A stretch of 64,000 nt of DNA from Thermococcus sp. 21S7 (GTDB lineage: Archaea; Methanobacteriota_B; Thermococci; Thermococcales; Thermococcaceae). This document shows, in pieces, positions 13,432 through 17,225 of the stretch; position 1 is the stretch's first letter, and each line of letters starts with the position of its first letter. A program made the position numbers and the translations under genes. The notes under the pieces were generated by a model. The model saw nothing but the letters and a program-made list of their open reading frames with translations, did not search any database and was not told the DNA's origin. The DNA is taken from contig NZ_SNUT01000001.1 in assembly GCF_012027615.1 (NCBI RefSeq), positions 310,001 through 374,000 on the forward strand, written 5' to 3'.

Positions 13432-13839
13432 CTATAAAACTTCAGCGAGTGCAGCTTTTTCAAAAAAAGTTTTCACTTTTTCCCGGTCGCAGCCGGTGAG
13501 CGGGAGCTCGTTCAGTCCAAAGTCGCGCAGAACCTCCAACGCTCTCTCCCGCGTTCCAAAGACCACCAGATAGTTCTCACCATCTTTTATGCCGTTTTGG
13601 GCTATGGCGTCTTTTATCTGAAGCGTTCCGGCCAGGCGGATCAGCAGCTCCCCCCCAAGGGTTCTCGCGTGGTTCGTTCCTCTCTCAAACGACCTGAGCG
13701 CCAGCAGAGCCGCGAACGCCACGGCCTCCCAGCACTCGGCGCTGACTATCTGAACGTCCCCCCCAAGCTTTGGGATAATCTTTCCGGCGTTCTCCACGTA
13801 CACCCTCGTGATGTGAAGCTTTTCGGTTATTCCCCTCAT
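13432..13839 (-). CDS. cgi121: KEOPS complex subunit Cgi121
   Basis: 135 residues. Cgi121 (TPRKB in humans) binds the Bud32 kinase in KEOPS, which makes the universal t6A modification at position 37 of ANN-decoding tRNAs, and it recruits the tRNA 3' CCA end. Typical features are the central DVQIVSAEC strand, the helical stretch AVAFAALLALRSFERGTN with the conserved N-x-A-R-T-L-G-GE, and the LLIRLAGTLQI-DAI segment. Usual family length. A minus-strand TATA (GGGTTTTAAC, near 13,875) precedes it. Confidence 0.88.
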   Translation of the reverse strand: MRGITEKLHITRVYVENAGKIIPKLGGDVQIVSAECWEAVAFAALLALRSFERGTNHARTLGGELLIRLAGTLQIKDAIAQNGIKDGENYLVVFGTRERALEVLRDFGLNELPLTGCDREKVKTFFEKAALAEVL

Positions 13840-14048
13840 CGAATTCCCCAGAATCTGATGAAATACTCGGTGTTAAAACCCTTTCTCATCCCCAATCCCC
13901 GCTGATTTAAAATATTTTTTGTCTTTTTGAATTTTTTCAAAAATTTTTTGAGATTGATAATATCACAATATTATCATCCATCCGCAAAGTATTTAACTAA
14001 TTAAATCACTAGTTATTTCAGCGGCTTACTGAACTGGGTGGTGCAGGG

Positions 14049-14240
14049 ATGGGCAAAATGCGTATCATCAGCGTACAGCTCCCCCAGGGCCTGATTAACG
14101 CCATGGACCAGCTGGTTAGAAAGGGCGTTTATCCCAACAGGAGCGAAATCATCAGGGAAGCTATTCGCGAGCTTTTGAAGAAGGAACTGTACCAACTTGA
14201 GGTTGAGGAGCGCTCAATGCCTGACTACATTATGAAGTGA
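14049..14240 (+). CDS. Ribbon-helix-helix (CopG-type) DNA-binding protein upstream of ftsZ
   Basis: 63 residues, the size of a minimal RHH repressor. An N-terminal strand KMRIISVQLPQGL is followed by helix 1 (INAMDQLVRKG), the NRSEIIREAIRELL second helix typical of CopG/NikR N-domains and a short tail. It lies 66 bases ahead of the FtsZ-like gene in the same direction. Boxes of sequence TAAAATCAGC flank it and recur after the parA-rhh pair, so it may control or organise this locus; that link is inferred. The AT-rich leader 13,910-14,030 is its likely promoter region. Confidence 0.85.
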   Translation: MGKMRIISVQLPQGLINAMDQLVRKGVYPNRSEIIREAIRELLKKELYQLEVEERSMPDYIMK

Positions 14241-14250
14241 AATAAGCCGC

Positions 14251-14270
14251 TAAAATCAGCCGTCAAATCA
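14251..14270 (+). repeat. TAAAATCAGC box with AAATCA extension (ftsZ side)
   Basis: TAAAATCAGCCGTCAAATCA at 14251-14270, between the RHH gene and ftsZ. The same pattern with two changes appears at 16750-16769. A weaker relative, TTATTTCAGCGG, lies at 14013-14024 ahead of the RHH gene. Possible binding site for one of the two RHH proteins. Confidence 0.6.
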
Positions 14271-14306
14271 TGCTGTAAGAGTCAGATGATTGAGGGGGTT
14301 GGGGCG

Positions 14307-15557
14307 ATGGTATTTAAACTCCTGGAACAAGCCGGAATAAAGCTCGACTTAGATGACAAGCCCAAAAAGGCAGAGTTTGGAGATTTCTCCGATGAGAACC
14401 TCGAAGATCTTATAAAGATTGTTATCGTTGGCGTTGGTGGTTCCGGAAACAACACGATAACCAGACTCTACGAGCTTGGCGTCCAGGGCGCGGAGCTCAT
14501 AGCCATGAACACCGACGCCCAGCACCTTGCCAGGACAAAAGCCCACAGAAAGCTTCTCCTCGGAAAGGAGATAACTCACGGAAAGGGATCAGGAGGCAAC
14601 CCGGAGGTGGGTTATCGGGCCGCCGAGGCGAGCGCCCACGAGATTGCCGAAACCATCGGTGACGCTGATCTCGTGTTCATAACCGCCGGTATGGGCAACG
14701 GCACCGGTACGGGCGCTGCCCCTGTTGTCGCCAAGGTTGTAAAGGAGCGTGCCAGGCACAACGGCCGCTTTAGGGAGCCACTCGTCGTCAGTGTTGTAAC
14801 GTACCCGTTCAAGAACGAGGGCAAGATACGGCTTGAGAAGGCCAAGGCCGGAATAAAGGCCCTCATGTACTACTCGGACACTGTCATCATCATCGAGAAC
14901 GACAAGCTCCTCAAGCTCGTTCCGAAGCTCCCAATAAACGCGGCCTTCCGCTTCGCCGACGAGATAATAGCCAGGATGGTCAAGGGTATCACAGAGACCA
15001 TAAAGCTCCCGTCCATGGTTAACATCGACTTCGCCGACGTTTACAGCGTCATGCACAACGGGGGTGCGGCCCTGATAGGGATCGGCGAGAGTGACTCCAG
15101 CAACAGGGCGGTCGATGCCGTCAAGAACGCCCTTGAGAACAAGATGCTTGAGGTTGAGTACGGCAGCGGCGACAGGGCGCTGGTTCACTTCACCGTCGGA
15201 CCGGACGTAAGCCTCGGCGAGATAAACGACGCCATGAACATCGTTTACGAGAAGCTAGGCGAGAAGAGTGAAATCAAGTGGGGAGCCAGGATAGACGATG
15301 ACATGGGTAAAGTCGTCCGTGCGATGGTCATCATGACCGGCGTTAAAAGCCCGCACATCCTGGGCGGGGAGCACGCCCTCCGCGTTGGTTCATCCTTCAA
15401 GGAGAACATCATAACACCAGAACCTATCAAGCCATTCAAGTCCGAAGACAACGGCTTTGACAGAATATTCAACACAATCTCCAAGCCCAGGAAGGCCGAG
15501 AAAGAACTCCCAACCTATGCCAAGAGGGTTCTTGAGGACTTCATCGACATCACCTGA
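14307..15557 (+). CDS. ftsZ: FtsZ-family cell-division GTPase
   Basis: 416 residues from ATG 14307 (upstream GAGGGGG); longer in-frame starts lack a ribosome binding site. The N-terminal nucleotide-binding half has GVGGSGNN (about 43-50), NTDAQ, and the tubulin signature as [12 protein letters not shown] (about 128-139). The T7 synergy loop reads [10 protein letters not shown], keeping the Asn and the catalytic Asp. FtsZ polymerises with GTP at mid-cell. Thermococcales carry more than one ftsZ paralogue; the GNGTGTG form and the absence of a clear C-terminal tail peptide leave the paralogue class open. Forms a group with parA-like and RHH genes. Confidence 0.92.
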
Positions 15558-15587
15558 CCCTTTCTCTACCTTTGGCAGGTGATTCCA

Positions 15588-16358
15588 GTGGCCGTCGTGA
15601 TCAGCATAGCCAATCAGAAGGGCGGGGTTGGGAAGACCACTCTGACCATGAACCTCGGCCATGCGCTCGCCGCCATGGGCAAGAGGGTTCTTCTCGTTGA
15701 CATAGACCCGCAGTTCAACCTCACCTTTGGACTTATAGGCATGGATGTCCTCCAGTACGGGGAAAGCAACGTGGGGACGCTGATGACCAGGGAGAGCGAG
15801 GTGGAGGACACCATCGTCGAGGTGAGGAGGAACCTCCATCTTATTCCAAGTCATCTGAACCTCTCCGCCAGGGAGATAGAGATTATCAACGCATACAACC
15901 GCGAGAGGCGCCTGGAGAAGGCCTTGACACCCATATTGCCCGATTACGACTACGTTCTCATAGACAACCCGCCCAGCATGGGAATCTTCCTCGTCAACTC
16001 GCTCACCGCTTCTGACTACGTCCTCATTCCGCTCGAACTCAGCTACTTCGGCGTCATAGGCATGCAGCTCATGTTCAACCTCATGCGCATGATCCGCGAG
16101 GAGACCAACGAGAACCTGAAGCTACTCGGGCTGGTTCCCAACAAGTTCACCCGCCAGACGAAGGTTCCGAAGATGCGCCTCAGGGAGCTCAGGGCGACCT
16201 ATCCGGACGCCCCGATACTGACGACGATTCCGAAGGCGATAGCCCTTGAGAAGGCCCAGAGCCAGGGAATGAGCATATTTGAATTCGACGGAGATGGTAG
16301 AGCCTCCAAGGCCCTTCTAAAACTCGCGAGAGAGGTGGTCGAAATTGTCGAAGGATAA
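15588..16358 (+). CDS. ParA/Soj/MinD-type ATPase
   Basis: 256 residues from GTG 15588, with AGGTGAT upstream. Deviant Walker A QKGGVGKTT (about 10-18) with both signature lysines, Walker A' LLVDIDPQFN (about 37-46), and Walker B YVLIDNPPSMG (about 124-134). These features place it with plasmid/chromosome partition ParA (Soj) proteins, which bind DNA non-specifically and move a ParB-bound site. It begins 30 bases after ftsZ and overlaps by 14 bases a gene for a basic RHH protein, the usual layout of a ParA plus RHH-type ParB pair. Confidence 0.9.
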   Translation: MAVVISIANQKGGVGKTTLTMNLGHALAAMGKRVLLVDIDPQFNLTFGLIGMDVLQYGESNVGTLMTRESEVEDTIVEVRRNLHLIPSHLNLSAREIEIINAYNRERRLEKALTPILPDYDYVLIDNPPSMGIFLVNSLTASDYVLIPLELSYFGVIGMQLMFNLMRMIREETNENLKLLGLVPNKFTRQTKVPKMRLRELRATYPDAPILTTIPKAIALEKAQSQGMSIFEFDGDGRASKALLKLAREVVEIVEG

Positions 16359-16680
16359 AATTCCCAAGCTTTTTGACGGCTCCGTTAACGAGCTCACCCG
16401 ACCGTCCAGGCCCAAAAAGGACAGGAAGGCCAAGTCCAAGGACATGAAGAAGGAGAAAAAGCAGAAGACCCTTTACATAAGCCTCGATATGAACAAAAAA
16501 CTCATCGAACTCTACGGCGAGGAAGGCAGAAGACAGAGCACCATCGTTGAGGACGCGGTCAACCTCTACTACTACCTGAAGCTCGCCCTCGGTGAGAAGA
16601 AGTTCGACGAGCTGATGAGTGCGGTGAAAAGGGAAGACCCGGAGTTCCTGCGGGAGTACATGGGGAGATTCAAGCTCTGA
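16345..16680 (+). CDS. Basic RHH protein, likely ParB-like partner of the ParA
   Basis: 111 residues from TTG 16345, chosen because AGGTGG lies eight bases upstream. The N-terminal 40 residues are Lys-rich and probably disordered (PKKDRKAKSKDMKKEKKQK). Then an RHH-like core: strand TLYISLDMNKKL, helix with IELYGEEG, and RRQSTIVEDAVNLYYYL. In RHH-type partition systems the small basic protein binds the centromere and stimulates the ATPase through a flexible basic N-terminus, which fits. The TAAAATCAGC boxes just downstream (16,721 and 16,750) are candidate targets. Confidence 0.8.
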   Translation: MSKDKIPKLFDGSVNELTRPSRPKKDRKAKSKDMKKEKKQKTLYISLDMNKKLIELYGEEGRRQSTIVEDAVNLYYYLKLALGEKKFDELMSAVKREDPEFLREYMGRFKL

Positions 16681-16720
16681 TGTTAATCCAGACGCTCAAC
16701 TCACCGTTTGAATCATAAGC

Positions 16721-16769
16721 TAAAATCAGCCCCAACTCCCGCGATGACGTAAAATCAGCGGTTAAATCA
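16721..16769 (+). repeat. Two TAAAATCAGC boxes downstream of the ParA-RHH pair
   Basis: TAAAATCAGC at 16721-16730 and again at 16750-16759, 29 bases apart; the second continues as GGTTAAATCA, matching the 20-bp site at 14251 at 18 of 20 positions. They fall in the 86-base gap between the RHH gene and the convergent ribL. Candidate centromere-like or operator sites. Confidence 0.6.
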
Positions 16770-17225
16770 ATCGCAGTACGTCTCTATTATCCTCCGGATT
16801 ATCTTGCTGGTCTTCGCCCTGTCGCTCTTGTAGAGGTAGGGGATTCGTATCACGTCAGCGTTTATGCCACGCCGCCGAAGCTCCTCCTTGAGGCGCTCGC
16901 AGCTGAAGTCCTGGTCGGGGCCTATCGCAACGATGTCGGGGTTTATGCGCTTCACCAGCCCGTAGTCTATTCCCCCGGGTGAGCCGATGTAGACCTCGTC
17001 CACCATCCTCAGGGCCCTCAGAAGTTCCGCCCTGTCCTCCGCCGTGTTCACGGGCTCCCTGCGCTTCTGCCTCCTGACAGTCTCGTCGTGGGCGACTATC
17101 ACTATCAGTTCGTCCCCCAGGGCCCTGGCCTGGCTGAGAAAGTGGATGTGGCCGACGTGAAGGATGTCAAAAACCCCGCCGACTAGGACGCGGATTTTCC
17201 GCCTTCCCTCCCCGGTTCCGTTCAT
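16767..17225 (-). CDS. ribL: Archaeal FAD synthase RibL (cytidylyltransferase superfamily)
   Basis: 152 residues. Transfers AMP to FMN to make FAD. The HIGH-type motif is [15 protein letters not shown] (about 16-30), followed by [12 protein letters not shown], the central GPDQDF and an ISSTxK-like [10 protein letters not shown] at the C-terminus. Length and motifs match RibL (MJ1179 type). It could be another small cytidylyltransferase, but RibL is the standard archaeal assignment. First position in a minus operon would be pyrF; the start overlaps the region after the PUA gene stop, with GGTGGGCTGAG as ribosome binding site. Confidence 0.8.

Follow-up and report, generated by a model that had tools for sequence, protein, structure and literature searches.

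The region under study lies in a 64,000-nt stretch of contig NZ_SNUT01000001.1 of Thermococcus sp. 21S7 (the window, within which all coordinates are given) and comprises the features collected in Table 1. On homology and synteny, the locus is identified as the cdrS-ftsZ2 division operon of archaea, to which Thermococcales add a SegAB-like pair of a ParA ATPase and a small protein. The best NCBIfam match of the first RHH protein is CdrS (1.1e-10), at 41 bits against a cut-off of 100, the model in question (TransRegCdrSHalo) being apparently haloarchaeal. The short RHH gene lies 45 bp 5' of ftsZ, in an order retained across Thermococcaceae; the full order Cgi121-cdrS-ftsZ2-parA-RHH2-nucleotidyltransferase is found in most of the 79 loci compared, which represent six genera (the named relatives in this comparison being Thermococcus and Thermococcaceae records), and CdrS is present in 81/81 genomes, including those without RHH2. 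The proposal of the initial annotation, that a division locus here ties FtsZ to a ParA pair, is borne out in that cdrS-ftsZ2, ParA and a small basic protein stand together in an order common to most Thermococcaceae. By analogy, CdrS is predicted to control ftsZ expression here. The haloarchaeal cdrS-ftsZ2 operon (PMC7439475, PMC8406309) likewise has a small RHH gene immediately before ftsZ2, and cdrS-ftsZ2 synteny is reported across Euryarchaeota. In contrast to the haloarchaeal operon, the Thermococcus locus is joined to a ParA pair and has no adjacent CdrL-like gene, and the accessible text of the two reports makes no mention of the array units and the TAATAT palindrome described below (PMC7439475, PMC8406309). 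This locus groups FtsZ2, its predicted regulator and a ParA pair, and is of interest for how archaea couple division to chromosome segregation.

Table 1. Genes and putative cis-elements of the division locus, in window coordinates.
Feature	Position	Strand	Remarks
Cgi121 (KEOPS subunit), divergent neighbour	13432-13839	-	NCBIfam PRK14886, 1.6e-27
Perfect palindrome GATAATAT-CACA-ATATTATC	13956-13975	.	directly 5' of the cdrS BRE/TATA
BRE (GCAAAG) and TATA-like box TATTTAAC of cdrS	13984-13997	+	nearly invariant, 76 loci
Inverted half-site pair TTAAATCA-CTAG-TTATTTCA	14001-14020	.	near the likely cdrS transcription start
cdrS-like RHH regulator, 63 aa	14049-14240	+	Pfam RHH_1, 3.9e-9
Array B, three TNRAATMA units (14238, 14251, 14263)	14238-14270	+	fills the cdrS-ftsZ2 gap
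ftsZ2	14286-15557	+	TIGR00065, 3.2e-112
ParA-family ATPase (SegA-like)	15579-16358	+	Pfam AAA_31, 5.6e-55; closest solved ParA chain, E 2.6e-40
RHH2, small basic SegB-like protein, 111 residues	16345-16680	+	overlaps the end of parA (16345-16358)
Array D, four TNRAATMA units (16708, 16721, 16750, 16762)	16708-16769	+	between convergent genes
Cytidylyltransferase-like gene converging on array D	16767-17225	-	Pfam PF01467, 4.2e-27

The locus had been thought to encode two RHH proteins, and this is half shown: the first is recognised by RHH_1, whereas the second, RHH2, is not recognisable as RHH from its sequence, since profile and structure-database searches with it gave no significant Pfam or PDB match. 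Only one of 23 RHH2 relatives matches RHH_1, at 0.04, and the AlphaFold monomer model (pLDDT 61) is too poor for use. The putative RHH assignment is one of gene position and of a KTLYIS-like strand pattern. The layout is that of SegAB (PMC12284271), in which the gene of a ParA-type ATPase overlaps a downstream gene encoding a small basic protein of ~110 residues. The Thermococcus pair differs in being linked to ftsZ2, whereas no gene was found to be consistently associated with segAB (PMC12284271); its small partner is a putative SegB-like protein, and the boxes discussed below do not follow the pair. Some g6 genomes (L281-L284) have a second, diverged ParA/small-protein pair away from ftsZ2, and the partner in this second pair is 34-40% identical to the RHH2 of the window.

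The palindrome before the cdrS promoter has the consensus ATAATAT-N4-ATATTA and, within a compared 53-bp stretch that ends with the cdrS TATA box, stands at a fixed distance from this box in 76 loci of all six genera. The form present in the window is the sole exact copy in its own genome. A palindrome regulon was considered and rejected, the only other near copy lying at the end of a topoisomerase-like gene and not in a promoter. The palindrome centre is found ~24 bp before the TATA box and therefore ~50 bp before the expected start site, which is the distance class reported for Haloferax CdrS sites (PMC8406309). The palindrome, conserved in all six genera, is a better candidate for the operator of the cdrS-ftsZ2 promoter than the arrays to which the boxes belong.

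The exact box TAAAATCAGC occurs three times in the window (14251-14260, 16721-16730 and 16750-16759), on the + strand in each case, with 0.11 copies expected and three copies reached in 0 of 100 shuffles. The 20-bp site that the initial annotation placed before ftsZ and again after the ParA-RHH pair is indeed 18/20 identical (14251-14270 versus 16750-16769), with a third core, at 16721-16730, 29 bp away, and the weaker relative that it placed before the first RHH gene is found as TTAAATCAGC, on the - strand at 13901, together with the inverted half-site pair, the exact form of which is confined to the nearest relatives. The strict 10-bp form is limited to a few species, and what is conserved is a looser unit: the boxes are members of two tandem arrays of TNRAATMAG at 12-13 bp spacing. 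In array B the first unit overlaps the cdrS stop codon and the units lie 13 and 12 bp apart, and in array D the units surround a conserved C-rich stretch. The pattern TNNAATMA is found three times in the cdrS-ftsZ2 gap and four times in the 3' gap, always in sense, corresponding to Poisson probabilities of ~3e-5 and ~5e-6, respectively, at the unit density of the intergenic sequence of this genome. Array B is the only intergenic three-unit chain in 798 kb of the genome, and of six unit pairs with 10-18 bp spacing four lie at this locus. About a third of the home genome was read base by base and the remainder by pattern only.

Across 79 loci, which share ancestry so that the species are not independent, 271 sense and 4 antisense units are present in the two gaps. 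Conservation of the boxes at the same gene order is partial: the cdrS-ftsZ2 gap contains two or more units in 39 of 65 full-order loci, the remaining loci falling below that, and after RHH2 at least two units are found in 45 of the 56 loci with the same right-hand neighbour, the others having fewer. Unit cores are kept and spacers and unit number vary between species, and unit spacing ranges from 12 to 16 bp across arrays and does not follow a helical turn.

Scanning 81 genomes for such arrays, with gene contexts taken from simple open-frame calls, revealed about six to eight independent array families, and reversed control patterns were rarer than the real ones. In several Thermococcaceae genera, integrated elements (pTN3-like proviruses) carry arrays immediately 3' of their major capsid protein gene, between it and the next gene (L172, L173, L174, L175, L177, L178, L179, L182 and L198, and L285, which is plasmid pTN3). 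This capsid gene has homologues in T. nautili pTN3 and in STIV, where the capsid is of the double-jelly-roll type, and pTN3 itself has three units after the gene. Further arrays lie downstream of glyA, where they neighbour an inverted repeat rich in GC and precede the gene of a predicted secreted protein (L176, L189, L203, L217, L257 and L271), in the gap separating a transporter gene from upp (uracil phosphoribosyltransferase), with a C-rich stretch between array and start codon (L204, L205, L210 and L212), after a predicted secreted-protein gene, and beside the RNase P protein gene, the names glyA, upp and RNase P protein reflecting sequence resemblance recognised by eye. In every family read in context the units have the same orientation as a gene upstream of them. 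Arrays are absent or rare in genus g2.

We favour a transcript-level role for the arrays because of their strand asymmetry, variable spacing and 3'-flank position. Most likely, they would work within the transcript, as an intergenic or 3'-flank element without structure, and may thereby tune how 3' ends form, how stable the transcript is or how much the flanking genes yield relative to each other. Initiation at the operon would more likely be governed by the separate palindrome upstream of the TATA box, the best candidate for a site bound by CdrS or by some other repressor or activator specific to the locus. Taken as a whole, a division operon with arrays as transcript element and a separate palindrome as putative operator is the best explanation we can offer, and one we hold tentatively, with rather less than even confidence. 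That AAUMAG units every 12-16 nt constitute a previously undescribed sense-strand tandem RNA element, setting expression between neighbouring genes in a handful of Thermococcales transcripts including division and viral capsid operons, we consider doubtful; if true, host division and virus assembly genes would share a post-transcriptional signal. No factor known to us binds AAUMAG in RNA. Against a transcript role stands the inverted half-site pair at the cdrS start, which looks like a DNA operator, as do the small number of independent array families and the fact that tandem direct repeats may share one orientation through causes that have nothing to do with RNA. Another argument against such a role is that aCPSF1, the termination factor, binds U-tracts (PMC8716108) and the arrays lack them: neither in 14238-14286 nor in 16681-16769 does the sense strand have five consecutive T. 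The terminators described within operons of Methanococcus, in the accessible part of PMC10450193, and the aCPSF1 U-tract signal (PMC8716108) are comparable as sense-strand elements of intergenic DNA by which relative expression within an operon is set, but the Thermococcus arrays are without U-tract and have a different motif.

Pairing between unit flanks in the array B gap falls below expectation (z +4.6), which would suit an open RNA site. Folding tests of the arrays returned no conserved RNA structure, and Rfam gave a single chance-level match in the locus, below threshold and inside parA. Three candidates were rejected: mini-hairpins closed by the unit flanks (no covariation, and a duplex energy no better than that of permuted partners), long-range pairing between the cdrS leader and the gap after cdrS (best helices 8.7 for own and 8.3 for cross pairs), and a genome-wide general 3'-end signal, for which the arrays are too rare. 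Genus g6 is an exception in that a local hairpin is possible (z about -2): in the gap after ftsZ2 (L058, L065, L066 and L071-L073) one unit may sit in the loop of a hairpin CCCTTT-ATAATCATC-AAAGGG, the stem of which is longer on both sides in L073. In the sister genomes L021 and L023, the cdrS leader and the gap after cdrS have changed together.

Short repeats, tandem or inverted, are common targets of RHH proteins, and it is possible, if on the unlikely side, that the arrays are DNA operators for CdrS, or for another universal RHH regulator, with a small regulon comprising its own operon, ftsZ1 and proviral genes. CdrS is retained also where RHH2 has been lost, the inverted half-site pair lies at the cdrS start, and the promoter region of the ftsZ1 paralogue in the same genome carries an exact TAAAATCAGC box. 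Haloferax CdrS binds upstream of ftsZ1 (PMC8406309). However, the ftsZ1 box is limited to near relatives, strict transcript-sense orientation would be unexpected of such operators, the arrays occupy gaps and 3' ends instead of promoters, and the conserved element of the cdrS promoter is the palindrome, which is different. Moreover, the DNA-contacting strand of CdrS hardly differs between species that have arrays and species that lack them, and an array looked for in the sepF promoter, as a CdrS target, was not there. We deem it unlikely that the units are sites of another DNA-binding protein, unrelated to the locus and shared with proviruses and metabolic genes. The varied gene contexts would suit such a protein, as would genus g2, with its absent or rare arrays, which may lack the factor, whereas the transcript-sense bias would not, and no candidate protein emerged.

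Plasmid partition systems with RHH centromere-binding proteins (omega, ParG) use contiguous heptads. As in these systems, the Thermococcus locus combines a ParA and a small protein with nearby tandem short sites, the AATCA-like core of which we take to resemble the omega heptads, but the sites are spaced by 12-16 bp, are not contiguous heptads, and are kept when the pair is lost. That the ParA/RHH2 (SegAB-like) pair uses the adjoining arrays as centromere-like sites, as the initial annotation had it in proposing centromere or operator sites, is a reading we find very improbable and largely refuted, even if the sites of Euryarchaeal SegB leave room for it, with no Sulfolobus-type motif near segAB in T. 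sibiricus (PMC12284271). The ParA/RHH2 pair is absent from the locus in genus g6 and in the single genome G060, and neither RHH2 type is found anywhere in the single-contig genomes G006, G016, G028 and G060. Nevertheless, 12 g6 loci without the pair keep at least three units at the same place, those after ftsZ2 reading TAAAATCAG and TAAAATCA, with cores invariant and spacers changing, and G060 retains four units in the cdrS-ftsZ2 gap. The converse case, the pair without arrays, is common, and arrays are also found in proviruses and next to the metabolic genes glyA and upp. Centromere sites of a ParABS or SegAB system would be expected to track the partner protein; the units here are kept in genomes without it. 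Since the boxes persist in relatives that lost the ParA pair they are not its own binding sites, and their presence in complete genomes without RHH2 makes them independent of RHH2: as these natural losses show, the ParA pair does not have its centromere in the arrays. Closeness to a ParA pair does not by itself make a box the centromere of that pair, and the cis-elements of the locus are narrowed to two, the promoter palindrome and the sense-strand arrays that are also found in viral capsid operons.

The least credible reading, in which the boxes would be neutral, AT-rich DNA of the gaps whose repetitive look arose by chance or from local duplication, would fit the freely changing spacers and the differing unit numbers but is disfavoured by the clustering probabilities in the two gaps, by the rarity of reversed control patterns and by unit cores being kept while spacers vary. 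Separately, AATCAGGGAGTCAATCA or close variants recur at ~7 places in the home genome (G000 C2, C4, C5, C6 and C7), and this is probably a dispersed repeat unrelated to the boxes.
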